IMG/VR virus record: IMGVR_UViG_3300030328_003713 | Location: 1-32,497 of that record | From: a virus | Length of the DNA stretch: 32,497 nt | Strand: one strand, 5' to 3' | In this document: piece after piece, positions 7,401-24,553 of the stretch | How the letters are laid out: every line of letters begins with the position of its first letter | Numbering within the stretch: the stretch's first letter is position 1 | Translations under genes and position numbers: made by a program | The notes under the pieces: model-generated | Database searches by the model: none | Seen by the model: only the letters and a program-made list of their open reading frames with translations | Told to the model about the DNA's origin: nothing

Positions 7401-10400
7401 GCTTAAGTTCTTTTTGTATATCTTTAGTTTTTAGTATATCTTCATACAAATTACTACCTGGAGTTTTAATACTTTTCATAGCAGCTTTAAACGAACTTTC
7501 AAACCTTTGTTGCAGTTTAATATTTCCATCAAACATCATGTCTAAGTAAGCATGCACACCTTCGTGGTTTATAACATCTTTGCCTTTTGATTTTTTAGTA
7601 TTAATCTGTATTGTGCCAACTTTACCACCACCCATTCTAGTGTACAAAGCGCTAACCTCTTGTTTGACCATTTCGCCGTTGTCTAGCATAATCTCTTGAT
7701 ATATAGGTTTATCTGTAATAACTACTTTTAACTCTTTACCTTTTGATTCAAACATCTTTTTTAAAGGCTCGTATTGCTTGTTATAGTTTTCTTTAGCCCT
7801 AGCAGGATCTACCCATTCAGCAGTGTTATTAATAAGGTTTAAACGCTCCATCGACAAGTTAAAGTCTTCCCAATATTTTTCAAGTTTTTGTACTTCTTTG
7901 CTGTTAGGGTTTTGTTCTATCCATTTTTCATACCTTGAATTTGGATCTTTTATATTTATTTTTTTACCTTTTAACCCTTTGTTAATTCTTCCTTTAGTTG
8001 TTTTATCACTATAAAATTGAGTTGCATCTGCTTTCTTTTGAATTACATCCATTTGCTGACCAATAAGTTCAGTAGCTCTTCGGTTAAATCTACCAACACC
8101 AGCTGTTGTTTTGTAATCAAGATGATTAAAGTGCATCATTCCTAATGCTTTACCAGTAAACATATTCAATCCTATACGTCTTAAATTAGCGTCGTAATCA
8201 CCCCAATGCTTATCCTTCCAAGTGCTAACCTCTTGTTTACCTTCTAAGTCTTTTACAACAGCGCCTAACGCATCGCCACCTTCAACAGCTAAAGCAAAAG
8301 CAGGTGCATTAATAAATGTTGATTGCATAAACGTATTCATTTGATTACGCTTAAAACTATAACCAAACTTTTTGCCTCTTCCAAATCTACCAAAACCAAA
8401 TGGTATAAACTTAGGCGCTACAAAAAAACCAAAACCAACACCTCTTTCAAACTGCATGTTTGGATTTACAGCACCTAAAAATTCTCGCATTTTAATATCT
8501 TCCCATATACCACCTAAAACTGTCCCATACCCTTTTTGCAGACTAGTTGCTTGTTTTACAGTGTGGCCAGTTGCTAAAGCCCAATCGTCTAAACTTTGTC
8601 CTTTCTTTGCAGATAATTTAAGAGCTCTACTTTGCGTTATAACTTTACCATTTTTTATATATCTTGGCGCCGCAAAACTTGCTAAAAGCTTGTTTATACC
8701 CATAACTTTTTGCACTTTATTTACTGGCGATAATGCTATAAGCATGGCCCCAAGACCACCTGCTGTTTCAAAAGCTTCATCAGTTAAAGTTCTTTCAAAA
8801 TAAGCTTCTTGCTGTAATGAAACATCCATACCGGATTCTGGCACAATCTGGCTAGCAATAATGTCAAGATTTCTTTGGTTAGTAATAGGTATAGGAAAAG
8901 CAAAGTCTGATGATGATTGTTCTACCGTTATATTTTCACCAAACATTGAGTACATAAAAGAACCACCCATTTGACCTAATCTATTTTTGCTTATAGTCTC
9001 CATGTCTCTGTTCATATACCACGTGTCCCATAATGCACTTTTTTTAGAAATTATCTCTACATTTTGTTTTCTTTTTTGTATTAAAAAGTCAACAAACTCT
9101 TCTTCATTTGTATATGGTTTTCCTTCAAAATTTTGAGGTACTATTTCTCCCTCTGCGAAAGCGCTTGTACGTGCCATAAAATCATTTGCGCCCGGAAGCC
9201 AAGACAATGGTATTAAATCACCTAATTTAACATTTTTATATATCCATTTTGATTTAATTTTTCCTTGTCCAGAAACCCATGTTGGCTTATAACCTAATCT
9301 ACGTAATTGGCCACTTACGGCTTGATTACCAATATAATAATCGCCAACCTCTTCTTTTTCTATGTTATAACCTGCTTCTTCTAAAAGTACTCTTTGGTTG
9401 TATTTTTTTAAATCATCTTGAGACGTGTTTTTAAAACTTGCTAAATAAGTTTGATAAGAATCTGTATAGTCAATTAAAGTAGTTCCATCACTTGTTGGTG
9501 GTGGTCTATCTGTATCAACTTGAATATTTCTTCCACTTACAGGATCGTGTAGCCACTTAAAGTTTTTAAATTCTTTTTTTCGTATACGCTTACCGCTAAG
9601 AACTTTTTTTCCAGTTGGTAACCCAGTGAAACTGTCAAACTCGTCTACCATCTCGTCTTCGTTAAACAGCTTGTCCGCTAAAGAACCTCTAATATTTGGA
9701 TCTAAATCAAGCTTATGAAATTCTTCTCCGTTTCTATATTTTTTTAATTTTTGAGCATAAAGAGCTTGAAGTTTGTCTGGGTGAGAATTTATAGTTGCAT
9801 TATCTAGATTGTCTATACCTTCAGCTAGAGCCTCTGCGTCAGTATCATCTTTTTCTTTTTTTGAAAGAATATCGTTTATTTTAATATACTCGTTTTTAGT
9901 ACTCTCTTCTTTCTTTTTCAACCTAACTTGCTGGTCAACTATTTTTGTAAAAATTACATCTAAATCAGCATCTGTTAAATTTTCGTACCCGTCCCTGGTC
10001 ACGCCAAGTTCACCAACTATATCTTTAAAATGTTTTTGTAAATCGCTATAATCATTATCATTTTCTGAATAAGCGACAATGTTTCCACGTGTAATTTCAT
10101 CAGCTATACCTTTATCAAAATATTCACCGTTTAACCACGCCTCTAAAATTTCCTTGTCTTTTTTATAACCTGGTTGATCTATACGTTTTGCTTCAGCACT
10201 ACCATATATAGGTTTTGCTTGAGAATCGTAGTCTTCACCATCATACCCAAACATTACCTCCTCTGATTCAGTTAATAAACGAGGTTTTACAGGTGTAATA
10301 AGTTTTTCTCTTTCTTCTTTTTCTCTTTGTTTTTTCTCTAACTCTTCTTGCTCTTTTTCTTGTTGTAAAAAATAAAAATCACTAGAGTTTAAAGGAGCGT

Positions 10401-10575
10401 TTTCGTCTATTGTTATTTCTGGTACTACAATATTTCCTTGTGTAAAAGTATTATCTTGTATTGAAACACTATTATTTACGGTGCTAGCGGTTGGGTTTTT
10501 AGCCAACCACGCCTCTAATTCTTCTTGCGTGTCAAAAGCATATGCTTTACCATCTAAATAATAAGTTTCAGTCAT
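1486..10575 (-). CDS. giant multidomain virion/ejection protein (3029 aa) with HExxH and HAD-like motifs
   Basis: The ATG at 10575 directly follows the previous stop (TAA-ATG). The N-terminal part is charged and helical. Hydrophobic segments appear near residues 596-625 and in a Gly/Phe-rich stretch near 712-776. HEGVH at 1004-1008 is an HExxH zinc-peptidase motif. A basic helical block near 1280-1335 contains NYDPGK. A HAD-type phosphatase domain spans about 2185-2365: DFDET (2193-2197, motif I), VFVLTAR with T2272 (motif II), a following GEAK lysine (motif III) and FVDDAISN with D2328/D2329 (motif IV). The C-terminal region resembles the end domain of large phage polyvalent and internal-virion proteins, with a conserved-looking stretch at about 2766-2805 (LPFANTPMQ) and a likely membrane helix near 2829-2851. 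Size, location after the tail genes and membrane segments suggest a protein packaged in the capsid and ejected to cross the envelope, carrying enzyme domains into the cell. It is not an obvious virion RNA polymerase. Exact roles are inference. Confidence 0.8.
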   Translation of the reverse strand: MTETYYLDGKAYAFDTQEELEAWLAKNPTASTVNNSVSIQDNTFTQGNIVVPEITIDENAPLNSSDFYFLQQEKEQEELEKKQREKEEREKLITPVKPRLLTESEEVMFGYDGEDYDSQAKPIYGSAEAKRIDQPGYKKDKEILEAWLNGEYFDKGIADEITRGNIVAYSENDNDYSDLQKHFKDIVGELGVTRDGYENLTDADLDVIFTKIVDQQVRLKKKEESTKNEYIKINDILSKKEKDDTDAEALAEGIDNLDNATINSHPDKLQALYAQKLKKYRNGEEFHKLDLDPNIRGSLADKLFNEDEMVDEFDSFTGLPTGKKVLSGKRIRKKEFKNFKWLHDPVSGRNIQVDTDRPPPTSDGTTLIDYTDSYQTYLASFKNTSQDDLKKYNQRVLLEEAGYNIEKEEVGDYYIGNQAVSGQLRRLGYKPTWVSGQGKIKSKWIYKNVKLGDLIPLSWLPGANDFMARTSAFAEGEIVPQNFEGKPYTNEEEFVDFLIQKRKQNVEIISKKSALWDTWYMNRDMETISKNRLGQMGGSFMYSMFGENITVEQSSSDFAFPIPITNQRNLDIIASQIVPESGMDVSLQQEAYFERTLTDEAFETAGGLGAMLIALSPVNKVQKVMGINKLLASFAAPRYIKNGKVITQSRALKLSAKKGQSLDDWALATGHTVKQATSLQKGYGTVLGGIWEDIKMREFLGAVNPNMQFERGVGFGFFVAPKFIPFGFGRFGRGKKFGYSFKRNQMNTFMQSTFINAPAFALAVEGGDALGAVVKDLEGKQEVSTWKDKHWGDYDANLRRIGLNMFTGKALGMMHFNHLDYKTTAGVGRFNRRATELIGQQMDVIQKKADATQFYSDKTTKGRINKGLKGKKINIKDPNSRYEKWIEQNPNSKEVQKLEKYWEDFNLSMERLNLINNTAEWVDPARAKENYNKQYEPLKKMFESKGKELKVVITDKPIYQEIMLDNGEMVKQEVSALYTRMGGGKVGTIQINTKKSKGKDVINHEGVHAYLDMMFDGNIKLQQRFESSFKAAMKSIKTPGSNLYEDILKTKDIQKELKLEEMMAYSAEYLSKAEYYTSMVNSEAFIKMKKFWNNFTKSTYNKNADLTTKQDVIDILGSYGRTGDFKKLERLNEIIEYDPTGEAGQKQLELASKADINKTIDKIKSKKTEVQQEIKDLRIAQGKTSKFQKQIDKNYELFAELNSNQKKLENRIEIKEVEETGWEKQIDKDYTGTHKTQAEFQASTENSRTQKNIMESSGLKNMIRQGQRSLDITDKVEGEFMENVLFEIIKRFNKNYDPGKINKDYGRALTPFEYLTTGQRKGESIIYRAIGDVAKRMGKQPKTISSDAFEGGYNAFENMVEQNGYSTLDTHTGSPVEARGIIVAEKLNINPITVKRAAGDTKNLNFETDAGAKEKASYKNIGKNYKETIEKDIVVDYYGVSEVVYSKMKKSAAEQLNNPDFEAIQSKIKPNIETHIKLIPKWGQVSVDPITGESISMKTVSGVKSETKATGITTVLLKNKLLFNEIPQTGTKGSKYEWTTELKEYHNSIDKVFKKQFEQKVLDSWGMGETTFNRAQLSGIYKAIMTQTGKAVYLQSVKQAIPNTPNLTAKHVIANMLNQVSAGQSPSLAKTEINALNKLLQKNMLDLSDIRQLAAKVPSRKEEFIVLEQIFMERQGWSKDVDVVKLNERLEAEASGTSKELDFQESVNRAKQIAKELKLNENLSSPTYLSENPGAKITITKNGKKVETTVDAWRNDMDAQVIQRFLENSGHTIESLDALMPVVLGKEFRRSRQKSHKGIESIVIELGLASSQSRKYITIDGKKAYVNKGNKTISQHLKDFYGQSFENLKAIEGNKKYDKVYRPDWSTEKKNQDKLELELKDKSIDEIGKAKVEAYRKAGSYSGKSKDYEATEKANREFFEDFLTAKAEIAYQNKSNFGLEYLLQSRAMQTNHGKGASKSFGYGVKSINAKGSELGTMETTSAKGVTKTKKVDSSNHWEHDLQLLNQTNRIMDLMKKHKGVTSAWKKGLSDILDVSNQHLIPKRGQLFNDAKGPTTFTEAYKQMLKKGIDNPLLNVFANKYARLENQFIVSGPNKGRSLLEVQLESIDLKIAKKIIQTVPKNKWSILEYQLNNKVKNEKSAKQQKINTLENALGKKMTKELASKDINEAIKNVNKALENGRKRNKVSRGMSTFDFDETLRGKGKEFVTATKGDKSIKISSEKFPLKGPKLEKEGYKFDFKDFVNVKGGVKGPLIPKIKNQIAKYGPENVFVLTARMQESAPAIHAWLKSQGVDIPLKNITGLGNSTGEAKALWMLEKFSEGYNDMYFVDDAISNVKAVKNVLDQLDIKSKVQQVLASTEINKITNEILEHSLGIDAKKNFTKAEAKIRGKGITRRRFFMSDSASDLELLIEPLYGKGKKGIENKEWFKKEFIAPFERGIRDYNTARQSAQNDYMALRKQNKDVVKIISKEVEGTSFTNDMAMRVYLWNKAGFKIPDLAKTTETKLVNHVKNNPALQSYAETFAKITRQKTGLKEPSANWWGETMAGEITNVDRGVNRKQYLQEYIDIKNEIFSELNLNKMESKLGSNWRENLEDIFNRMETGRTRSVNLDRGSNLMMDYLNGSVGTIMNFNTRSAMLQTISTINFLNMKENNPIAAARAMGNVPQFAKDFLYIMNSDMLKQRRGGLEINVSEAELASAARNSKNPIHSMIAKVLKVGYTPTKLADSFAISFGGATFYRNRIKMYKKQGMETKAAEKQAWLDFQSLSERTQQSSRPDLLSRQQTTLIGRVILPFANTPMQMNRRGMKDILDLSKGRFKNNVEAAEKMGRITYYMGAQVALFAGLQSAFYAMLFNDEDVTEDQIARAKGFTLGTVTDSFLSGFGIQGRIAAQFKNATLEFFKQNAKPPFKADYAEVAEDLLNISPLVGPKYSTLDKAGDRMKYGRNTPFKFELGNPKLEAALMTTQSLTNAAVYSPYQNANNIKHGLNSDYETWQRFHMFLGFDPYSVGIETEKKTKSLKKKKFEDTNVHDF

Positions 10576-12062: not shown

Positions 12063-12947
12063 TTATATTTGTTTAAATTCTACGTCTAACACATCATAAT
12101 TTACACGATCATAGCCGTTTATATTACTAACTGCCTCTTGTGGTATTTCGTCAGACATTACACCTTGGAATAATCCTTTTCCATGTAAAGGATCTTTATA
12201 TTCGAAACTATATATATTTAGACCACTTGGTGATTTACCAATTAAGTTTATATTTTTCTTAAGTCTTCTGTCAGAGTTTATATCAATTCCAAGACCTTTT
12301 AATGTACCACCAGCACCAAAGTAAGAGCCAGCCATAGAACCTACTGAGCTCATATATTGACCAGTTGCTGCTTGAGCACTAGCTAACCCTTGTCTAGCAC
12401 CTGCTACTTTTTGACCTTCTACACCTAACAACGTTGCTAATTGATCTAACTCAAATTGTCTAGCGCCTTCAGCGTTTGCAAGTTCTATATTAGTCATTGC
12501 TTGATTTATTCTACTTTGTTCTTGTAATTTTAATTCTCTATTTCTAACCATCATTTGACCAATACCCGCTGCCATTCGCTCAGAAGACGCTTCAGCTTGA
12601 CTGCTTAAAGCAGTTGCTAAACCAGCCGCTCCAGAACTACCAGAAACACCTTTTAACCCTTGCAGTATATTTGCTTGTTGTTGCGCAAAAGCTTTACGCT
12701 GCATTTCAAAAGCAGCAGTATCTACCTCCATGTCTTCAAATACGTTTTCTTGGTTTGCTATTTCAGGATCAATAGGTTTAAACTCCAGCTCTTCATATTT
12801 CTTTAATCTTTTTTCATATTCTGCTTGAGTTGCTCTCATCTCTTTTCTTGCTCTTCTCTCTTGTTTTTTCTGACTCATATATCCAAGAGCAGCAATAGCA
12901 ACTTGCCACCATCTAGCAGGACTTTTTTTCTTTAATTTGTTATTCAT
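12063..12947 (-). CDS. helical internal-virion-like protein with short C-terminal S74-like chaperone domain
   Basis: The first 100 residues are basic, then coiled-coil (RRARKEMRATQAEYEKRLKK), followed by an Ala/Gln/Gly-rich helical middle and a Gly/Ser segment near 205-220. This resembles T7 gp14-type internal proteins. From S225 it changes to SDRRLKKNI (225-233), then a GLNIYSFEYKD strand and GVMSDEIP, the hallmark sequence order of the Peptidase S74 intramolecular chaperone domain. In that family cleavage occurs before the Ser of the S-D-x-R-L-K motif, using a lysine of the following K-K/K-E-N segment. Here only about 70 residues follow, shorter than the usual domain, so it may be a reduced form. 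S74 domains normally sit on tail spikes and fibres, so its presence on a helical protein is odd. Start at 12947 follows a 27-base gap. Confidence 0.75.
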   Translation of the reverse strand: MNNKLKKKSPARWWQVAIAALGYMSQKKQERRARKEMRATQAEYEKRLKKYEELEFKPIDPEIANQENVFEDMEVDTAAFEMQRKAFAQQQANILQGLKGVSGSSGAAGLATALSSQAEASSERMAAGIGQMMVRNRELKLQEQSRINQAMTNIELANAEGARQFELDQLATLLGVEGQKVAGARQGLASAQAATGQYMSSVGSMAGSYFGAGGTLKGLGIDINSDRRLKKNINLIGKSPSGLNIYSFEYKDPLHGKGLFQGVMSDEIPQEAVSNINGYDRVNYDVLDVEFKQI

Positions 12948-12974: not shown

Positions 12975-13304
12975 TTATTTACTACTTTCTATCACTTCAG
13001 AGCTTAATGCGAATAACTCTGCCTTACTAGTTGAATCATTTGTTAATTTTATTTCAGCATAATAACCAAGTAAACTGCTATTATTTGCTTTTTTGTTTTT
13101 AGAAAACATTATAAAGTCATCTATCTTTAAATCACTATCACCATTATCTACCTTGATATAATCATTACCAATTTCAGTTACTTTTCCAAGTGATTTATAA
13201 TCATTGCTATAACCATTTGTCCCTAACGTAGTATAATAAACGTCGTCTCCAATTTGTAAAGAATTATTTTGTAAATTATTTTTTAATGTTATTTTTTGAT
13301 TCAT
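12975..13304 (-). CDS. small conserved phage protein (109 aa), probably virion-associated
   Basis: This acidic, beta-rich protein has no signal peptide or membrane segment. Its middle part (QIGDDVYYTT, GKVTEIGNDYIKVD) looks like a small SH3-like or OB-like barrel, and its end (LGYYAEIKLTNDSTSKAELFALSSEVIESSK region) is a sequence type I associate with small structural proteins of marine phages. It sits between the beta-rich 422-residue protein and the S74-tailed protein with only a 6-base gap upstream, so it belongs to the same late transcript. A possible role is a decoration or tail accessory protein; there is no direct evidence for function. Confidence 0.7.
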   Translation of the reverse strand: MNQKITLKNNLQNNSLQIGDDVYYTTLGTNGYSNDYKSLGKVTEIGNDYIKVDNGDSDLKIDDFIMFSKNKKANNSSLLGYYAEIKLTNDSTSKAELFALSSEVIESSK

Positions 13305-13310
13305 AATATT

Positions 13311-14579
13311 TTATGCTGTGGCAGCGCCATGTGTTATAAATTTAGTTAGATCTAGGGCTAGTTTAGCATTACTAGCTGGATATTTATTTATAGTAACGGT
13401 GCCTTCTATTTTTATTTCTTGATGAGAACCATTTATATAAACTGTAGTTCCAATAGGCACTATAGAAGAAACAACATCGTCTGCAGATCCTGCAAAAGTA
13501 ACATTAACACTACCAGCTGATGAGCTAGCACTAACACTTGTAATTAAATTGTTATTTGCATTTTCATTAATATTATAACCAGATATTCTAACCAAACTAG
13601 CGCCTGCAATACCATACGTGCCATTTAAATTAAGAGTTACAGCCCCGTCAGAAGCAGGGAACGTTGTGTTTGATCTAACTGTTTTAGTCAGTTGAGTTCC
13701 TTTTGCAACAATACCACTAAAGCTTATGTTTAACCCAAATACTTTGCTTATTAATGTTGGTCCGTAAGCTCTAAAATAAAGCGACACGCCATCATTAACC
13801 GATTGTGCAACAGACAAAGTAACCGTATTACCGTCTATGGAGGTTATAATAGGTGATCCAGAAATAGATCCACTAGAAAGAGCAACTAGACTCATACCAA
13901 CAACTAAATTAGTTACACTATCTAAAACTACGGTTGTAGAACTAGAAATAGTTCCGTCACAAACTTGAACTTGCTGTGTAAACCAATATGTATCTGGTAT
14001 TGTAAATTGATTAGATGCTGGTCTATCAGGAAGCATAAACCCAAAGCCATTAGTATCACTAGAAGTGTTTGTTAACGTCCAAGAAATAGGAACTCTTGTA
14101 GAGCCACTTTGAACAGTAGAGCCTATACTTGAAACTGTTGTGTCTGGAGGGTTTGCTGTGTACTTGTCTGTTAAATCAGAATTTATTTCAGTTCCTTCGT
14201 CAAGCTCTAAATAAACTGTTGTTTGGCCTACTTGAGTTATTTTTTTGTTTACAACACTACCACCATTTTTAAACACTGTGTTTTTTGAAGGTATTACAAT
14301 TATGCTATACACCTCACCTGTAGCATCTGCTGGAAAACTTATGGGCAATACAAAAGTATTAGAATTCATAACTACAGTTAAACTATTATCCGCAATAAAT
14401 GCGTTTGTAAAAGCCCTTGTTTTAAAGTTATAGTAACTTTCTTTGCTAGTCCCATTTATTTTAATAACATTAACAATAAACGCGGCTCCAATTTCACCAA
14501 CTACTTTTAACGATCTTGACTGCGCAGAAGCCGACATGCTACTTTGATCTATTTGTACTAAATTAATTAATTTGTTCAT
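13311..14579 (-). CDS. beta-rich virion protein, probable tail/fibre accessory (422 aa)
   Basis: The protein is rich in Ser, Thr, Val, Gly and Asn, with almost no charged helical segments, which suggests repeated beta-sandwich domains. Residues about 213-270 (TTVVLDSVTNLVVGMSL, then SGSPIITSIDGNTVTLS, then SVNDGVSLYF) form a module that recurs in marine phage structural proteins, and residues about 325-385 resemble a second, weaker copy. The ATG at 14579 overlaps the nozzle gene's stop by one base (TAATG), implying translational coupling with that gene and a stoichiometric partner role at the tail. A receptor-binding or tail-surface role is plausible. No enzyme motif is visible. Confidence 0.7.
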   Translation of the reverse strand: MNKLINLVQIDQSSMSASAQSRSLKVVGEIGAAFIVNVIKINGTSKESYYNFKTRAFTNAFIADNSLTVVMNSNTFVLPISFPADATGEVYSIIVIPSKNTVFKNGGSVVNKKITQVGQTTVYLELDEGTEINSDLTDKYTANPPDTTVSSIGSTVQSGSTRVPISWTLTNTSSDTNGFGFMLPDRPASNQFTIPDTYWFTQQVQVCDGTISSSTTVVLDSVTNLVVGMSLVALSSGSISGSPIITSIDGNTVTLSVAQSVNDGVSLYFRAYGPTLISKVFGLNISFSGIVAKGTQLTKTVRSNTTFPASDGAVTLNLNGTYGIAGASLVRISGYNINENANNNLITSVSASSSAGSVNVTFAGSADDVVSSIVPIGTTVYINGSHQEIKIEGTVTINKYPASNAKLALDLTKFITHGAATA

Positions 14580-17500
14580 TATATAGTCTGTTTACTTTTT
14601 ACAACACCTAGGCCTTGAAAGCTTAAATCAGAAGTTTTTATATCTGTAGTTAATCCTTTAATGTAATTAAACCACTTACCTTCTTTTTCAATAAACTCAT
14701 TCAAACTTCCTTCTTGTTTATCTGTTTTTATGTATTCTACACTCCATCCAGTTTTATCATATTGATTATAGGTTTCTAACGTGTTGTAGTAATTACCCTT
14801 ATGTAAAACAGAAGGATTACCAGCTTTTACCTTGGATTGAGTACCCTCGTAGTTTAAAGTATTGAAAGATTTTACTACAGAAGGGCTTTCGTTTAACACA
14901 GCCTTAATAGTAGACGGCTCGTGTATTCCGTAAAAAGTGTTTCTATTAGTATCATTACCCTCTAAATCTAAAATTTCCTTGTTATGCTCAAACAAACCTC
15001 CGTTTTTCATTGTAAAGTACTCGCTAGATATACTAACACCTTGTTCTGGTATAAATGATTTTTTACTAACCCAACCTCTAACGTTTTCATCAAAACTTAA
15101 CGTAGAAGGAAAATCACTTACAGGGATAAACTCTTGTCTTAGCATTATGTTATCTATAGTACCAGTTGTACCCAATGGATCATCGCTATCAACAAAGAAA
15201 ACAAAAGTGTCCTTAAGATGGTCAGCGATATGATCTTCATTTATTGTGTGTAATTCATCATAAGTCCCATCTCCAGTTAAACCTTCAACTTTAAATCCTT
15301 TGTTGTCTTTACTGCTGAAACAATAAAAACCAATACCACCAGTTCCGCTGTTTGATGTAAAATCGTATTCAAATCTTACTCTATACGTATCGTTTTGATA
15401 TAAATCCTTATTTATAACTTGTTCTATTTGAACTTGATCACCACCAGCACCTATTCTTGGGGCAGAATTAAATTGAATTTGCCCATTACTAACATCAAAA
15501 TCTATGTAAGTATAAAGATTTTGATCAAAACCACTAATGTTAAAAGAACCAATAGTTGCGCCTGTATAATAATTTGTTAAATCTTTAAGACTAATATTAT
15601 CTATAGCGCCAACAAATCCATCGCTTCTATTTTTAATTACTATTTTATCTATAATATAGTTATTAGCTACAGTTGTGTCACCAGTAGAAACTCCGTCACG
15701 TTTAATATCGTAACCTCCCATACTATCACTAAAATTAAACTCAACAGAATAAGTTCCATTTTGATTTATCGTACCATCGTCACCAATACAAAGTCCACCG
15801 TGGGGATTACTTAAAGGAATGGCTGTAGCCCCATTACCAATACAAACCTGTAAATCTCCGCTTTCATAACTTTTAATTGTAAACTTAAATTCATAACCAT
15901 CAGGTGTTGGTGTAAGTGAAGTATCTATTGGATTGTTCTTTTGAAATAACCATTGATCAACAATTCTAGTAGTATCAGTATCACTAACTTCAAAATGAAT
16001 CCCATCAACACCACCATATATTTTTGGTCTATCAAAACTATGTTGTGAAGGTGGGTTGTTTGGCGGACCATTAAAAGTCCAATCATTTATTTCACCACCC
16101 GAATACGTATCGTTTATATTTATCAATCTAATTGCGTCAATATGCACTTTAACATCAGATGGTATTGCAATATCAATTCTACCATTACTAGCTTGATCAG
16201 AATCTATTTGAAAAATAGCTCTTAAAACATCTCTATTTGCAAAATTACTATTACTGCCAGAGTAAACATAATAAATATCTGTATTAACAATATTAAAAGG
16301 TGTTCCATCTGCAGAACCACCTGATTTAATAATCATACCGGTACCACTGCCAAGATCTGGAGCGTCGGCTAAAGGATATATTATATCTATAAAATACCAA
16401 TCATCTGTAGTTAAAGACAAACCGTCTTGTCTTAATCTTATACCGTCAACTACATTTTCAAAAACAAACATATCATTTACAGGGGCAATTGTTGCCTTAC
16501 CCCAAGATTGATTTGTACCTCCATAAGTATTAGTACCACCACCAAATGTAGAAGTGTTTGGATACATGCCAGTACCCCCACTACCATCATCATAAAAAAC
16601 TGTGTTATTACTTGTTGTTCCAGTTGTTGGAAACTGATATGTTGCGGTAGAACCGCTGCTTGATTGAGTTAAAGTATGTGTTGTTAAATTCATACCAAAA
16701 ACATAACCATAAGTAAACTTTGCTCTATCACCGCCTACGTCATCAATATATGTATGTGAAAATAACGGTGAACTATTAGCCAAGTTCATTACGGTCCAAT
16801 CTGAAACACTATATTCTACTGTTGCAAAAGCAGGTATTGCTACTGCCGGTTCCGCGTTTCCATCTGGAGTTGATGTTGAAGTTTCTGTATAACATTCTTC
16901 TAATCTAAACACTTTTTCTATATTAACACTACCTAAGTTACCATATGTGAAACCATAAATTCTATCTCCATTACCATCATCACCGTTCATTACTTTAAAC
17001 CCAACTTGCAAATCGTCAACGCAAACACCCTCAAGTTCATCTCCATTTGTAAACTTAAAGTAAGCTACGTGATACTCATTATTAGTGCTACCTATTTCTG
17101 CAAAACTTACAAACCGATTAGTTTGATAGCCAAGTTCATAAGTACTAGTGGTTGGTGTTTGTGAATAATTAGCATAGTCAGAAGATGTAACTCCAGCTGG
17201 AAGATTTGTGGCGTCTAATATTTTATTTGATTGTAAAATAGCACCACCAGAACCTGGAATACCATCATAAAGCGTTATTTGAACAAATCTAGGTGTATCT
17301 CCATTTGGCCCACTATAAGTAGTAGTACCGCTTTCATTTAAGTCTGGATCGTGTTTAAAGTAAAAAGAAATTTTAACTTCTTCCCCATTAAATATAGTAT
17401 TGTTTCTGGCATTAGGATATTCTGTAGATATTTGCCCAAGTAACAAATTATCATTAGCAGTTCCATCAGCATCTCTATTCCCAGGCAATGCTAACGTTGG

Positions 17501-20500
17501 TTGGTTAGTAGAGCCACCTTCAAACATTCCATCCCAAATAAATCCTCTATATCCAGCCGTGACACCAGTTCCCGCGTAAAACCAAGGTTGATCAGCAGAG
17601 GGAGCATTCATTTGCCAACCGTACGAGGAGTTTTGGTAAGTAGTAGAAACACCAGATGGTTCAATAGTAAAACTACCATCTTCGTAATCATCAGCCTCAT
17701 ATTGCCAAAAAATATTTCCACTAGGACCGTGATCAGTAAATCCACTTCCAGTAACACCACTCCAAAAATCATCTCGCTGCGAGCGTTGTGTTGTTGGCGT
17801 CAGCAAACCGTTGTGATAAACTGGGTACATGTGAGAATCCATGTTGTCATCAAAACCACCACTAAGACTTGTCGCTGCTACGCAATTGTCTTGACCGTAA
17901 TTGTTAGAATTAAAAGGATTATCTGAACTATTAATAGAATGACTATAAAATATAGAAGAAGAAGTTGTAGCAAAAGTAGTAAAAGTAGCCGGAGTATAAG
18001 TAATTGTAAAAGTTTCTGGAATTAAACTACCAACTGGTATTTCATTCCAATTTTGAATTGTAACATCTACGTTTATACTTATATTTTCATAAATATTACT
18101 TGCAAAAAACGGTCCAGACGTTGTGTCAGGCACATTTAACTGCGTATAATTGTTTATTTCAGAGTCAGTTACCAACTCTCCAACTGCTGTTATTAGTTGA
18201 GACTGACTACCAGTGTCAAGCGAATCATTAGCTATAAGATTTTTTCCAGGTGTATTTTCTTTTAATGTTAAATTATAATTTTTATTATGAACATCATAAC
18301 TACCAATAATTTCTCCTGATATTTTTAAAGTGTCTCTAAAATAATCATCCATACCGTGATCCGATATAGGTGTTATACCATCCATAGATAATCTAAGTAC
18401 TGCACCTCTTTGTTTGTCTGCAAAATAAGCTCTATAAGATTCTTTTGCAAATGATTCTGGATTTTTAGATATACCAAAATCACCTACAAAAGGATTTGCA
18501 TCACCAAGAACCGCGTCTGTTGATACTAGTTGAACATTACCATCAGCATTATACAATGCGTTTTTATTAGAAGTTATACTTACTACTCTATCCTCACAAA
18601 AAGCAATTAAACTTATTCTTCTTTGAAATAATTTTTGTATACTACCGTATGTAGGGTTTAAATCTTTGGTAATTTTTTCAGCCATTATAAACTGATTTAA
18701 ATCATTTATACCAGAGGTTGAATTATAAATCCCAGAAAATATTAAACCATTTTTTCTATTTTCTTCTTTGTATTCTTGATCTAAAATTAAAGAAGCCTTA
18801 ACACCTTTTGATATATTTGGTGAATTAAAATCATCTTTTATTCTATTTGATTCTATACCATTACCAAAAGAGTAGCAATTAAAATAACTTAAACCATGCT
18901 CCATAGAAGCGTCTAGTGTAGGGTCTAAAGTAAATGTATTTATATAATCACCGTTTGCATCACCTTCCTCAACAATTCTAGTTGTAGTATAACTACCATC
19001 TTCTCTAAAAAATCTTATTTGGGTAGATATTGACGCATTTGGATCAGAGTTGTCAGCATAAATTATTTCTGTACTTTGATCTGTTTCAAACTTGTTAAAA
19101 CCATCTCCACTTAATGTAATTTCTCTACCATCCCAAGACTCTAAATAAATAGGTTCGGTAATATCATGTTTTCCATTTCTAGCTTCTTCTTTTAGTATTT
19201 CCACTCTACAACCTATTGGTGCAAAAAGTTCATTTGTTTCATCGGTTAATTTAAGCGGTATTGCTTGGCCAGCCTCATAATAAAGATCTAAATTTTCACC
19301 CGGCTTAGCTTCTGTTTCCCATATTGCTGGACTTTGACTAATATCTTCTAATAAAACACCAGCATCAGTTGTTATAAATTTTATATCTAATTGAGAATTA
19401 GAATCAAAATCTGTAGTATTATCAACAACACCAGTAACATCTAATGGATTTCTATCTACCTCAAATATATAAACAACTCTTCTATTATTTGCTCTTCCAA
19501 AGGATGTGATTTTATCTTGAAGCGCCTCAAAGTTAGCTTGAATACTTGTGTCATCTAAAAAATCTTCAGCGGCTTCGTCAACACTATTTCCACATAACAC
19601 TAAACCACCATTATTAACTGTTGGGCTGGTTGCCGAACCGTCCCATTTATACTGCGCTATCCAAGACGTGTGATTATATATTCTTTTTTCTTTTACATCA
19701 CTAATTATTTTAAATGGTTCGTTTTCTGCAGATGAAAAGACAAAGTATTGATCTTTTCGAAGGTTATTTATAAAGTTCTGAATTTTATTGTCTGGGTCTT
19801 TAGATGGTGGCCACGCTGGATTCCATTGATTGTCGTGTTTTTCTCTATGTACTGGATTGTTATTATAACCATAACCAACATTAGGCCCTGGGGCGCCAGG
19901 TAAACCAGCTCCTAATTCGTTGTAATTACCCTCCATTTCAAGTATTTTATTTGTAGTGCTATTAGTAAAAATACCACCACCCCATATTGCTTGCATGTGA
20001 TTACCAGGACTATTAACTCCTTTTAAGTTTTCATCCCCAGCCAACCATGGGTTTAATTCCCAATCATTATCATGCAAGTCTTCACCTGGTGCTAAAAAAG
20101 ACAAGTGTATAAAATACCTACCAACCTGATCAACATCTCCTTTAGCAAGTGGAAACATTTGTTGAGTACCATCATCAAGAAAACCATAAGTGTCGTCACC
20201 AAGCCCTTGCAATGGTTTACCTGCTATACGAGATAATCCTTTCCATCTTCTAAAACCTATATTTATATTAGGGCTGCTCGTGTCTCCAACATGCTCAGTT
20301 TTTGTTGTTAAAAAACCCTCTAAACCATTCATTGCTTTTGTTGGATCTTTAGAGATTGAGCCACCTGAGAATGAAAAAGGTCTAGGACTATAAGAACTTG
20401 TTAAAGGTAATTGCAGAAAACTCCCGCCAGAAGCAGAGAGTGTTGACCAGCCATAACTTCCATCATCAAAATGTGCCCATGTTGGAAACCTTTTTGCGCT

Positions 20501-22993
20501 TCCCTCTTTCCAGCCAATCCAAGTTTTTCCGGATTCTCTCACGAGCGTACTTGTAACGTTATCATTAAAAAGTTGGCCAGCAACCATGTATATATTATCA
20601 ATAAAAAACCCTCTATTATCGTTATTACTAACATCACCTAATTGAGCTGCTAAAAGCTCCCATTCACCTTCTTCTTGTGTTGAACCACTACCACCAGTTA
20701 CTTCAGAACTATCTTGTGTTGGTGGAGCTGATATTGGAGTAACATTTATAACACCATCAATATCTTGAGGAACACCAATACTACTACTTCCTGCCCCAGA
20801 AGATATAGCTGGATCATAAAGCCAGTTTAATTTACTTTGATTACTAATTATATTATTACCATTAATATCGAAAGGTAATATTTTTTCTGGTGGATTATAA
20901 ACAATTTGAACAAAAAACTTTCCTGAAAATTCTTCTAAATCTTTTTCGTCTTTTCTTTCAATTGAAATTTGTAAATCATTATCTAACTTTCCAGCTGCAG
21001 CGCTACCTTGTGCTAATGTTGCATCTGCTTCTGTAATTTTCCTGTTTAATTTAAGCTTATAAACCGTGCCGACATATTCTAAAGATATTATTCTATATTT
21101 TTCAGAATTAAGTTTTGTCTCTTTATTTTTCCAAGAAATAAACATATTCATTACATTGTATTGCCCTACTTCTTTCACGCCAAAACCACCACCACCTATA
21201 GTGCCTAACCATTCAGCTATAACAATTTCAACTCTATCAGTTTCTTTACTAATAACATCATCAACATTTGTCATGAAACTATCAGTCAAATAATTACTAC
21301 TAGTTTGAACTGCTTTTCCTAAAGTACGATATTCAAACTTTACAGCGTCAGGCGCTTCGTTTTGTATATCTAATATTTTAAACTTATTTTCAATTCTTAC
21401 TTGCTCGTGATTACCGCTTATTTCTTTTTTTAATATTAAATAGTCATCTACTGTAACTTTGTTTCTATCTGTTGATGGAAAAGAAAGCCAAACGCGATCC
21501 TCATCTTGGTCATATACATTTAAAGTTGATTCTGCATATGCCTTGTGCATTATTAAATTATAATATTCACCAGAAGTTTCTTTTACGTATAGTTTGTAGT
21601 AATCAGCCCAAGTAGGTATAAGCGTGTCTAAATTAGCTTTTAAAATCAAACTTTTACTAGCCAAATGCTGAAAGTCATTGTTATACCAAGGTATATTAAC
21701 ACCCCCGTCTTCAGATGTAAAAACAGGTGTTTCTCTACCATATTTATCACCCCAAACAAAACCAACTTGATAATTTCTTTGCGTTTTTAAAGAAGGTTTA
21801 CCTCCAGTAGTAAAAGTTTGACCATCTTCTCTTAAACCAAAGTCAGCATTAATTTTGTTATTTACTTTGTTTTGACCTTTCAACAAATCATAACCTTGCG
21901 TATAATTTCCATAAACAAGTCTATTACCTGTTATTTCTTGTGCTAAAGCTTTTCTTGGAACATTATCCCAAGGTCTTAATAATTGATTAGAAGGTATTGC
22001 AGAAGATATAGATTCAGATTTCAACACAAAATTATTAGCATCCCATTCCGCGTCATCATGATTAATTGTTTTTATAGAAAAAACTACAGGAGACCCATCT
22101 TCTTTGTAAAGTATTTCAACTTGTTCAACATCTTTTGGAATACTAGAAGAAACAAAGTTAGATATTTCTATAGATTCAATATTATTTAGCATTGCTAAAT
22201 TGTAAGATTCTTTTATTGAGTACGCGTTTTCATCACTAATATCTTCACCTATATATTTAGGGTTAAATATTACTTGGGTAAAAGGACCAAAAGAAGAATA
22301 TTCTCCATCCTTATATCTGTATCTAAAAGAAAATCTTGGGAAAACTTTTTCGAATAGTTTTGATGTATTCTGATCGGTAGGTTCGTTTATACTTATTGAA
22401 GGTGGGTATTTAGGACTTTTTTTAATAACAGTAATGTGTTCTTCTAGCATATCACCCTTATCAACACCATCTATTATTAATCTTGTACTAATAGCGCTAT
22501 CTAGACTTGTAATACCGGTTGGGTTTGCCTCTTCTGTACCCTGTATACAATTATCTATGTTTATTTTTTTAGGCTCAGAATTATTATCAGTCCAAAACAA
22601 TAAATTATCAATTATATTTATACCTGTAATAATATTTTGAGTAAACTTTAAAACACTATTGTTTGTGTCTACTAAAACAAACTTTTTTTCTTCAGTGTTT
22701 AAATCATATTGTAATATTGCAGAAATAGGATCAGGCTCTTGAGTTACGAACCAATATAATTTATTGTTTTTATTATCAGCAATTGTCGCTACGCATTTAT
22801 AGCCAGAATCTGCTGGTATAACATCTTCTACTCTATAATTACCTAATATATTCTGAACAACACCAACACTGGCATCATCCGAAGATGATACCTTAATATT
22901 CATCGCGTCTATGTACTGTCCATTAGGAACAATTCTTTCATCAAGGTCTTGATTCATCTTACCTTGAGTGAAAGTGTTTTTAATTTCTGGCAT
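14579..22993 (-). CDS. giant tail nozzle/stabilization-type protein (2804 aa) with carbohydrate-binding-like insertion
   Basis: The N-terminus (FTQGKMNQDLDERIVPNGQY, residues 8-27, then DAMNI) matches the start pattern of stabilization/nozzle proteins of crAss-like and marine short-tailed phages, functional counterparts of T7 gp12. Further nozzle-type features are ALAQEITGNRLVYGNY, the YQVGFVWGDKYGRETPVF strand and, at about 1480-1579, the YRAYFADKQRGAVLRLS and YDVHNKNYNLTL segments. The nozzle resumes at about 2628 (LSFDENVRGWVSKKSFIPE) and runs to the end. Between them, about residues 1585-2625, lies a Gly/Ser/Thr/Asn-rich insertion made of beta-sandwich-like modules. Each of four closes with a related strand: VDDLQVGF (1992-1999), HIDAIRL (D2286), AIDNISL (D2465) and TIDNIML (D2614). 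These look like carbohydrate-binding or jelly-roll modules. The protein should form the lower tail tube and may carry the adhesin. Nozzle call good, insertion function inferred. Confidence 0.82.
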   Translation of the reverse strand: MPEIKNTFTQGKMNQDLDERIVPNGQYIDAMNIKVSSSDDASVGVVQNILGNYRVEDVIPADSGYKCVATIADNKNNKLYWFVTQEPDPISAILQYDLNTEEKKFVLVDTNNSVLKFTQNIITGINIIDNLLFWTDNNSEPKKINIDNCIQGTEEANPTGITSLDSAISTRLIIDGVDKGDMLEEHITVIKKSPKYPPSISINEPTDQNTSKLFEKVFPRFSFRYRYKDGEYSSFGPFTQVIFNPKYIGEDISDENAYSIKESYNLAMLNNIESIEISNFVSSSIPKDVEQVEILYKEDGSPVVFSIKTINHDDAEWDANNFVLKSESISSAIPSNQLLRPWDNVPRKALAQEITGNRLVYGNYTQGYDLLKGQNKVNNKINADFGLREDGQTFTTGGKPSLKTQRNYQVGFVWGDKYGRETPVFTSEDGGVNIPWYNNDFQHLASKSLILKANLDTLIPTWADYYKLYVKETSGEYYNLIMHKAYAESTLNVYDQDEDRVWLSFPSTDRNKVTVDDYLILKKEISGNHEQVRIENKFKILDIQNEAPDAVKFEYRTLGKAVQTSSNYLTDSFMTNVDDVISKETDRVEIVIAEWLGTIGGGGFGVKEVGQYNVMNMFISWKNKETKLNSEKYRIISLEYVGTVYKLKLNRKITEADATLAQGSAAAGKLDNDLQISIERKDEKDLEEFSGKFFVQIVYNPPEKILPFDINGNNIISNQSKLNWLYDPAISSGAGSSSIGVPQDIDGVINVTPISAPPTQDSSEVTGGSGSTQEEGEWELLAAQLGDVSNNDNRGFFIDNIYMVAGQLFNDNVTSTLVRESGKTWIGWKEGSAKRFPTWAHFDDGSYGWSTLSASGGSFLQLPLTSSYSPRPFSFSGGSISKDPTKAMNGLEGFLTTKTEHVGDTSSPNINIGFRRWKGLSRIAGKPLQGLGDDTYGFLDDGTQQMFPLAKGDVDQVGRYFIHLSFLAPGEDLHDNDWELNPWLAGDENLKGVNSPGNHMQAIWGGGIFTNSTTNKILEMEGNYNELGAGLPGAPGPNVGYGYNNNPVHREKHDNQWNPAWPPSKDPDNKIQNFINNLRKDQYFVFSSAENEPFKIISDVKEKRIYNHTSWIAQYKWDGSATSPTVNNGGLVLCGNSVDEAAEDFLDDTSIQANFEALQDKITSFGRANNRRVVYIFEVDRNPLDVTGVVDNTTDFDSNSQLDIKFITTDAGVLLEDISQSPAIWETEAKPGENLDLYYEAGQAIPLKLTDETNELFAPIGCRVEILKEEARNGKHDITEPIYLESWDGREITLSGDGFNKFETDQSTEIIYADNSDPNASISTQIRFFREDGSYTTTRIVEEGDANGDYINTFTLDPTLDASMEHGLSYFNCYSFGNGIESNRIKDDFNSPNISKGVKASLILDQEYKEENRKNGLIFSGIYNSTSGINDLNQFIMAEKITKDLNPTYGSIQKLFQRRISLIAFCEDRVVSITSNKNALYNADGNVQLVSTDAVLGDANPFVGDFGISKNPESFAKESYRAYFADKQRGAVLRLSMDGITPISDHGMDDYFRDTLKISGEIIGSYDVHNKNYNLTLKENTPGKNLIANDSLDTGSQSQLITAVGELVTDSEINNYTQLNVPDTTSGPFFASNIYENISINVDVTIQNWNEIPVGSLIPETFTITYTPATFTTFATTSSSIFYSHSINSSDNPFNSNNYGQDNCVAATSLSGGFDDNMDSHMYPVYHNGLLTPTTQRSQRDDFWSGVTGSGFTDHGPSGNIFWQYEADDYEDGSFTIEPSGVSTTYQNSSYGWQMNAPSADQPWFYAGTGVTAGYRGFIWDGMFEGGSTNQPTLALPGNRDADGTANDNLLLGQISTEYPNARNNTIFNGEEVKISFYFKHDPDLNESGTTTYSGPNGDTPRFVQITLYDGIPGSGGAILQSNKILDATNLPAGVTSSDYANYSQTPTTSTYELGYQTNRFVSFAEIGSTNNEYHVAYFKFTNGDELEGVCVDDLQVGFKVMNGDDGNGDRIYGFTYGNLGSVNIEKVFRLEECYTETSTSTPDGNAEPAVAIPAFATVEYSVSDWTVMNLANSSPLFSHTYIDDVGGDRAKFTYGYVFGMNLTTHTLTQSSSGSTATYQFPTTGTTSNNTVFYDDGSGGTGMYPNTSTFGGGTNTYGGTNQSWGKATIAPVNDMFVFENVVDGIRLRQDGLSLTTDDWYFIDIIYPLADAPDLGSGTGMIIKSGGSADGTPFNIVNTDIYYVYSGSNSNFANRDVLRAIFQIDSDQASNGRIDIAIPSDVKVHIDAIRLININDTYSGGEINDWTFNGPPNNPPSQHSFDRPKIYGGVDGIHFEVSDTDTTRIVDQWLFQKNNPIDTSLTPTPDGYEFKFTIKSYESGDLQVCIGNGATAIPLSNPHGGLCIGDDGTINQNGTYSVEFNFSDSMGGYDIKRDGVSTGDTTVANNYIIDKIVIKNRSDGFVGAIDNISLKDLTNYYTGATIGSFNISGFDQNLYTYIDFDVSNGQIQFNSAPRIGAGGDQVQIEQVINKDLYQNDTYRVRFEYDFTSNSGTGGIGFYCFSSKDNKGFKVEGLTGDGTYDELHTINEDHIADHLKDTFVFFVDSDDPLGTTGTIDNIMLRQEFIPVSDFPSTLSFDENVRGWVSKKSFIPEQGVSISSEYFTMKNGGLFEHNKEILDLEGNDTNRNTFYGIHEPSTIKAVLNESPSVVKSFNTLNYEGTQSKVKAGNPSVLHKGNYYNTLETYNQYDKTGWSVEYIKTDKQEGSLNEFIEKEGKWFNYIKGLTTDIKTSDLSFQGLGVVKSKQTI

Positions 22994-22996
22994 ATA

Positions 22997-24553
22997 TTAG
23001 TGTTTTATCCACTTAGATTTACCTCTAAGCGTTTGTGTTATTTCTTCTAACTTAATATTTGACAATCTTAATTTAGCTTGTCTAGTTGCGGCAAACTTTT
23101 CCTGTTTGTATCTTCTTACAATATATTCTGGTGTATTTGCTCTTGTAGATAATATAGCGTACATTATGTGTTTGTAAATCGCATCTTGAGCAAGTTTGTG
23201 AACTTGCATCTCGCTATCAGTGCCCAAGCTGTCGCTTATATATTTTAAGATTACAGTTTTTCCAGAAATATTAGAGCTAAAATTTATTAAACCTTTTAAA
23301 CTGTCTATATAGAAAGAACCGTTTGCTTGGCTATGTTGTGGATCAAGACCATATCTTTCGCCAATAATTAAATCGTAATCATCAGTGTCGTACTCACGAT
23401 TATTAGTTTCAGAAGTATTTGAAGATTTATAATTAGTCCAAGTTGTAGAATCACCATCTCTTTGAACATTTGAAAACTCACCTTCAAAAGTTAAATTAAT
23501 ATCATCTAAAGTCAAAGTAACACTAGTATTGTCAACCATATTAACTAGGTTGCCAGGCACAAACATTGTTACTAAAACAAAAACTTCGTTATAACTACTT
23601 ACATCTACACCTTGTAAGTTTTTTGTTGCACTATCTACAGCGCTACTACCAGTCCATTGCATATAAGCTTTTCCAGCTGAATTACCAGTATATGGTATAA
23701 AATTAGGGCCTTTGTTTGCTCTACCAAAAACTTGTCCATTAAGACTAGGATTAAAATCTGAAGTATGTGGGTTTGTTATGCTATCACCTTTTGTTCTACT
23801 AATACCAAGTCTAATAATTGCTCCTGAAGCACCTGTTATATCTGCTGGAGCAACACCCAGACCTGACAAGCTTATTTCATCTATACCAGAAACATTAATA
23901 GCTTGCCAACAACTATAATGTCTACCATACGTGTGAGTTATGTTATTACTATCGGTATAACCTTCTTTGTGTATTGTGGCTGTTAACTTACCACCCACAG
24001 AGTTAAACACGTCTGTTGTGGTTACGCCATTTGGTTGAACTGTTGAGCCGTTTATTGCAAGATCATTTTTTCTTGCCGGCGAAGCGGACCAGTCATTAGT
24101 TGCATCAAATGATGATGAAAAATCTCCATTATTAAAACCTACAAATGCACCACTATTACCACCAAAATCATAATTACCGTCACTATCTTGTTTTATTTTA
24201 AAAGGATTTGAAGTTTTACTTGCAGGGTACAACCTATGCTGTATACCACTCGCGTCTGACCAAGAAATATCTGTATAATTTACGTAATCATGAGGTAAAA
24301 TCATAGTTAATGAAGGTGGTAAAACTATTTCTTGAGATTTTATAGACTTAAAAGTATCAAATGATAATTCTTGTAAAGCTCTTTGTGCATGAAAAGCAAC
24401 GTCAACTTTATTTGCTTTGCTAATAACTTTTTCCTCTCCAACATAAACAACCATAAATTGATTTATAATATCATCTAAAGAAGTAAACTGATAGTCTCCA
24501 TAATTATTTCCTTGATAATAATCTTTTTGATTTCTATTTGAATTTACTGTCAT
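22997..24553 (-). CDS. neck/ring (tail adaptor) protein with inserted beta-sandwich module (518 aa)
   Basis: The flanking parts look like a conserved neck/ring structural protein of marine short-tailed phages. Residues 1-130 include SLDDIINQFMVVYVGE, HAQRALQELSFDTFKS and the LYPASKTSNPFKIKQDSDG segment. Residues about 362-518 include TWTNYKS, ERYGLDPQHSQANGSFYID, GLINFSSNISGKTVILKYIS and a helical tail ending RLSNIKLEEITQTLRGKSK. Between them, residues about 133-359 form a Gly/Ser/Asn-rich beta module that starts GFNNGDFSSSF and ends VTLTLDDINLTFEGE, the same kind of closing strand as in the nozzle insertion. The core is predicted to join portal and nozzle (T7 gp11-like position), and the insertion would protrude from the neck. 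The gene starts three bases after the previous stop, with the A-rich leader AACAATAAAAA. Confidence 0.75.
   Translation of the reverse strand: MTVNSNRNQKDYYQGNNYGDYQFTSLDDIINQFMVVYVGEEKVISKANKVDVAFHAQRALQELSFDTFKSIKSQEIVLPPSLTMILPHDYVNYTDISWSDASGIQHRLYPASKTSNPFKIKQDSDGNYDFGGNSGAFVGFNNGDFSSSFDATNDWSASPARKNDLAINGSTVQPNGVTTTDVFNSVGGKLTATIHKEGYTDSNNITHTYGRHYSCWQAINVSGIDEISLSGLGVAPADITGASGAIIRLGISRTKGDSITNPHTSDFNPSLNGQVFGRANKGPNFIPYTGNSAGKAYMQWTGSSAVDSATKNLQGVDVSSYNEVFVLVTMFVPGNLVNMVDNTSVTLTLDDINLTFEGEFSNVQRDGDSTTWTNYKSSNTSETNNREYDTDDYDLIIGERYGLDPQHSQANGSFYIDSLKGLINFSSNISGKTVILKYISDSLGTDSEMQVHKLAQDAIYKHIMYAILSTRANTPEYIVRRYKQEKFAATRQAKLRLSNIKLEEITQTLRGKSKWIKH

Follow-up and report, generated by a model that had tools for sequence, protein, structure and literature searches.

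Comparison of homologues indicates that residues ∼1584–2629 of a tail protein encoded in the window, by which we mean the whole 32,497-base stretch of viral DNA analysed, are a true, discrete and dispensable insertion, and structure prediction supports a cassette of tandem beta-sandwich modules with carbohydrate-binding-module (CBM)-like folds (predicted fold, TM ∼0.5). From these models the cassette is probably an exchangeable chain of surface-binding modules, of CBM family 4 (CBM4)-type fold, which the hexameric tail-tip muzzle carries in a B-C hairpin and which would bind host glycans as an accessory adhesin. CBM insertions in structural tail proteins and, in principle, muzzle insertions are already known; the site, size and modularity of this insertion, its presence/absence pattern and the unrelated payloads and chain breaks at the same hairpin are new. 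The host choice of crAss-like phages is poorly known and contact between muzzle and cell has so far been inferred from one structure; one hairpin gaining, losing and swapping large binding-like modules is a concrete place in which to seek host-range determinants.

The 2804-aa protein matches PHROG 14478 at its N-terminus (E 2e-122), contains the crassvirus muzzle C-terminal domain (Pfam PF25729, crAss_MUZ_C) with a score of 41.6 bits against a cut-off of 27, and is homologous to known muzzles. An earlier sequence-only reading had taken it for a generic nozzle/stabilization protein; it is nozzle-like, but these family matches identify it as a crAss-type muzzle. Identity to the phi38:1 muzzle is 31% over 33% of the length, and the relatives in phage records, ∼30% identical, come from phages of Cellulophaga, Flavobacterium, Tenacibaculum and Maribacter, where they are structural proteins. 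The gene order, terminase - portal - structural genes - ring-like protein - muzzle, agrees with the crAss-like pattern, and the source is a marine crAss-like phage. The window is an entire virus record, the end of which falls within the terminase gene, and it is far shorter than its 60–70 kb relatives; it is therefore a genome fragment. The locations of the features are collected in Table 1. A 109-aa protein encoded at 12975–13304 (−) matches the second half of PHROG 18548, the first half of which matches the muzzle C-terminus, and in Cellulophaga phage phi13:2 both parts are seemingly present in one protein, gp121 (241 aa, the length of the profile).

Table 1. Features of the muzzle and ring-like protein genes in the window.
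Feature	Position	Strand	Length or residues	Remarks
Muzzle protein gene	14579..22993	−	2804 aa	PHROG 14478, crAss_MUZ_C; homologues in phi38:1 and Cellulophaga/Flavobacterium phages
Conserved propeller segment ahead of site	18263..18673	−	1441–1577	Ends in strands GSYDvhnkn-YNLTL; 85–86% identity to near relatives; alignment A6; matches crAss001 gp44 1057–1200
Inserted cassette	15107..18244	−	∼1584–2629	Absent in 53/82 and 36/79 relatives, present in 25 and 36; all-beta model
Cassette region M1	16976..18244	−	1584–2006	Ends VDDLQV; fold of middle uncertain
Cassette region M2	16106..16975	−	2007–2296	Ends HIDAIRL; partly low confidence
Jelly-roll-like module M3	15560..16105	−	2297–2478	Ends AIDNISL; mostly pLDDT 80–94; homologous to M4
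Jelly-roll-like module M4	15128..15559	−	2479–2622	Ends TIDNIML; mostly pLDDT 80–91; most widely kept module
Propeller resumption (LSFDENVRGWVSKKSF) and MUZ_C domain	14582..15106	−	2630–2804	PHROG 18548 match from 2629; PF25729 at 2683–2779
Adjacent ring-like tail protein	22997..24553	−	518 aa	PHROG 13977; N- and C-terminal parts strongly conserved
Second inserted beta-sandwich domain, in ring-like protein	23480..24157	−	∼133–358	pLDDT mostly 80–96; Foldseek CBM matches

The flanks of the cassette had been said to lie nearly adjacent in related proteins, and this was tested by measuring the spacing between conserved segments A (residues 1441–1582) and B (2623–2730). The first sample, fetched with the window's whole protein, holds 82 muzzles (80 IMG/VR loci, phi38:1 and the window), in which spacing is 902–1354 aa in 25, 87–294 aa in 4 and 0–48 aa in 53. 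Because the whole protein had served as the query, a second sample was retrieved using the pre-site segment alone; among its 79 measurable loci, some of them on contigs common to both samples, 36 are empty, 7 are intermediate and 36 have 927–1439 aa inserted. Thus, near adjacency of the flanks is borne out in both samples. The joined flanks of the empty form read YNLTL ... tvSFxExvkGWvSfksF, and the site is empty in phi38:1 and, by alignment, in crAss001 gp44. As the insert is in frame in many independent contigs, it is not an assembly artefact. The landmarks given earlier hold to within a few residues (YNLTL at 1573–1577 and LSFDENVRGWVS from 2632), as do the four closing strands, which lie at 1992, 2284, 2463 and 2612 and bear D1994, D2286, D2465 and D2614. 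The composition described then was right for Gly but not for Ser and Asn, which are no more frequent there than elsewhere in the protein; the insert is Gly/Thr-rich, acidic and Lys/Glu-poor.

A clean insertion, repeatedly present and absent at one site, would also suit a self-splicing or mobile element of the intein type rather than a functional protein domain. This reading was rejected and retains almost no credibility, as no intein or nuclease match is found in the insert, its start is without Cys/Ser, its predicted fold is all-beta and CBM-like and its sub-modules are exchanged in a graded fashion.

Gene layouts indicate that the cassette hairpin is also a gene break point. In phi13:2 (L205:2510-8080), gp120 runs 501 aa beyond the pre-site strand and then stops, and gp121 starts MPKTITYSEKNKGWTSF, which is exactly the strand after the site. 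In the phi13:2 payload, which has no similarity to the modules of the window's cassette, one domain is Ig/cadherin-like and of bacterial type (PF17963, E 4e-21). The same layout is observed in contig ctfjg026 (L207:2501-8521), with a 184-aa gene between the two ORFs, and in an Aquimarina longa genome scaffold (L122) a 504-aa payload homologous to that of phi13:2 precedes a second ORF, in which the closing strands are encoded. Within the window's own lineage, L199 has a stop 42 residues past the first segment and a restart at MAITITYKESAKGWVSF, and in L184 the break lies inside the cassette, which is divided over two ORFs; these two are single metagenomic contigs, for which alone sequencing error is possible, while several records share the phi13:2 layout. 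The propeller's closing strands are carried by the second ORF in all of these broken muzzles (L205, L207, L122, L184 and L199). No description of a gene break at the muzzle hairpin was found in the literature searched. The muzzle of Maribacter phage Panino, annotated as two ORFs, was not counted; its break is upstream of the hairpin and may be a matter of annotation or sequencing. Muzzle genes were also observed on long bacterial scaffolds, L122 (Aquimarina longa SW024, 837 kb) and L124 (Aquimarina algiphila), which suggests crAss-related prophages in Aquimarina.

The position of the site within the muzzle was derived from crAss001 gp44, a member of the same family with a ring-joining domain, a 7-blade propeller and IG1, IG2 and crass domains (PMC10172136). 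The profile built from the joined site aligns with gp44 at residues 1057–1303 (E 7e-11), with the insertion site near residue ∼1198. In gp44, IG2 with the crass domain occupies 318–1021 and the gate loop is in blade 4 (Bayfield et al. 2023, PMC10172136). Since it is outside IG2, the site is in a later propeller blade, and the strand pattern, when counted, points to blade 6, at its B-C hairpin. The B-C hairpin edge of a standard propeller shares a face with the connections between blades. From this topology, the cassette should exit on the distal side, the face of the inter-blade connections where IG1 is inserted. Length variation among muzzles has been attributed to insertions that fall within the crass region and within IG2 and can alter surface properties (PMC10172136), whereas the window's insert occupies a later blade hairpin which is empty in crAss001.

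Structure prediction and fold search of residues 1560–2660, the check proposed with the earlier reading, gave the expected type of fold. The AlphaFold2 model, from 32 sequences, is an all-beta chain with mean pLDDT of 69 and pTM of 0.42; M3–M4 are well predicted, confidence is low in mid-M1 and over part of M2 and the low pTM leaves inter-module geometry uncertain. Foldseek against the PDB matched this model to CBM4 1gui and the hyaluronan-binding CBM 4d0q (both prob 1.00, TMt 0.49–0.50), indicating a jelly-roll beta-sandwich in the predicted model, and to reelin repeats, GH101 entries, Vip3 proteins and the B. thetaiotaomicron surface glycan-binding protein B; against viral models many tail proteins were matched, one of them annotated CenC-like. 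The cassette resembles 1gui in its predicted jelly-roll fold and in a closing strand like xDNIxL, but differs in being without significant sequence membership and in a TM of only ∼0.5. Searches of Pfam, NCBIfam and PDB sequences with the insert or its profiles found no significant domain, and neither a Pfam match nor a significant PDB sequence match assigns it to a CBM family. Among PDB sequences the M3–M4 profile came closest to glycosyl hydrolase family 10, at a level short of significance (E 0.14). A scan with the window's insert alone returned nothing, and the insert has no match in phage records. The jelly-roll fold serves structural and protein-binding roles too.

Four similar closing strands had been described, and a strand of this type does end every module; homology is detectable for the last two modules only, M3 and M4 (hhalign 97%, E 1e-10). 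For M1 and M2, hhalign detected no homology among the modules, and their only common feature is the terminal xDNIxL-type strand. The motif [IV]D[DNA][LI]x[LV], although picked post hoc, occurs four times in the insert and nowhere else in the protein, compared with 0.03 expected in shuffles.

CBM4-like modules are usually joined to glycoside hydrolases. Several fold matches are GH entries and M1, at about 420 aa, has low-confidence stretches, so that part of the cassette might be an enzyme, a capsule or exopolysaccharide hydrolase or lyase to which the CBM-like modules are auxiliary. We regard this as quite improbable, as the Foldseek matches include no catalytic fold, Pfam gave no enzyme match and M1 is not retained in shorter cassettes of ∼580 aa.

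The cassette has diverged far more than its surroundings, identity between the window and L001 being 42% in the cassette and 86% and 74% in the flanks before and after it, with means over 300 pairs of 25% for the insert and 64% for the flanks. On a core tree from which the insert was left out, the distribution of insert-bearing muzzles requires at least three changes on branches with good support, and constraining them to one clade is rejected (AU p 1e-62, for a group named after the data had been seen). Phylogeny thus indicates that the cassette is repeatedly gained or lost. The ∼580-aa cassettes (L170, L182) have a NIIANDSFDDG-type start in common and keep M3 and M4 with a different first part; M4 is present in both and in nearly all full-length cassettes. 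An apparent exception, the L035 insert, looked unrelated by BLAST, yet this classification was abandoned, as its last module is a remote relative by hhalign (87.5%). The best explanation is that M3–M4 form a conserved base while earlier modules diverge or get replaced.

These patterns also bear on a purely structural role for the cassette, as decoration or spacer, in which it would stabilise the tail tip or extend its reach without binding a ligand. Virions are often decorated with jelly-roll and Ig-like domains, and an acidic, Thr/Gly-rich insert would suit such a role. We nevertheless consider it unlikely, since many relatives are without the cassette, which is therefore not needed for assembly, since rapid divergence between well-conserved flanks is unusual for a stabiliser and since the fold matches include many glycan-binding proteins.

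About 20 insert-less muzzles, in addition to L041, L050 and L052, have C-terminal extensions, which were considered as a relocated cassette; this was not supported, as they consist mostly of tandem GCTDPxAxNYDPxATVDDGSC repeats. Extensions with this repeat occur in 23/53 empty-site and 4/4 intermediate muzzles but in only 1/25 that bear the insert. The short inserts at the hairpin of L034 and L020 (intermediate) contain or end in a Cys-containing repeat of this type, and the two payload sites can therefore share a module.

On the predicted folds, receptor binding by the cassette is likely and a role as the host adhesin is plausible. In the accessory-adhesin mechanism, the blade-6 B-C hairpin would be a socket that may stay empty, accept inserts of up to about 1,400 residues or be interrupted by a full break of the chain. 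Six cassette copies would be displayed round the tail tip on the face of the IG domains and act as accessories to separate tail fibres in adsorption, binding glycans of Bacteroidota hosts, whether capsule, LPS or exopolysaccharide; once bound, they may hold the muzzle near the outer membrane ahead of gate opening. The earlier proposal that the tail body replaces separate fibres is contradicted in relatives: G002, a near-complete, insert-bearing genome of 69.7 kb, has a gene for a tail fibre of 824 aa (PHROG 6722, E 4e-67), relatives of which are encoded in insert-bearing G001 and G011. The window, at 32 kb, is too incomplete for its own fibre genes to be judged. Thus, of that interpretation, the discrete CBM-like tandem modules are retained and fibre replacement is not. 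A broader reading, in which crAss-related phages generally would use the hairpin as a payload socket (left empty, occupied by binding cassettes unrelated to one another or made of two chains jointly closing the propeller) and in which, the propeller holding the ejection gate, cassette-host glycan binding could directly help to trigger gate opening, is rather unlikely. For testing the role of the payload, phi38:1 is a natural insert-free control and phi13:2 is cultured and carries a different payload.

The closest precedent for the cassette, by analogy, is the CBM-bearing evolved Dit of skunaviruses, in which CBMs are internal to a structural protein of the tail, a classical form of which is insert-free (PMC10688798), a combination observed for the muzzle in both samples. 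The two differ in the host protein, Dit there and muzzle (PF25729, PHROG 14478) here, in phage type, and in size, the Dit inserts being far smaller (168 aa in group-14 Dits); binding is supported experimentally there, the inserts having been shown to aid adsorption to EPS-positive hosts (PMC10688798), and is predicted from the fold here. The BACON tandem repeats of crAssphage, for which binding to Bacteroides surfaces has been proposed (PMC6949934), resemble the cassette in being tandem beta-sandwich modules that evolve fast and belong to a tail region of a crAss-like phage. They are Ig-like, however, and encoded by a separate tail-associated ORF, and no BACON match was found in the window's cassette. 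To call the design unusual was therefore an overstatement, given the evolved Dit parallel and the muzzle insertions published at other sites, although site, size and modularity are new.

The protein encoded next to the muzzle appears to be a ring protein from its gene position and predicted fold, and has an insertion of its own. All measured homologues of L001–L081 but three (phi38:1, L076 and L048) have a hypervariable middle of 167–302 aa, and the model has a well-folded beta domain within a split sandwich with helices. Foldseek matches this domain to CBM4 1gui (TMt 0.55), CBM61 2xom (TMt 0.60) and alginate- and porphyran-binding modules. Profile comparison found no sequence homology between the muzzle cassette and the ring-like protein, and the two inserted domains may therefore have only the fold in common. 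This further domain would likewise bind host polysaccharides, holding the tail tip at the surface.

Two other proteins of the window were noted. A 294-aa protein (12063–12947, −; PHROG 6121) has a sub-threshold match to an endosialidase chaperone domain near its C-terminus. A 3029-aa protein (1486–10575, −), without a confident family match, holds NHEGVHAYLDMMF and a DFDET...DD stretch resembling HAD phosphatase, and is possibly an ejected cargo protein.
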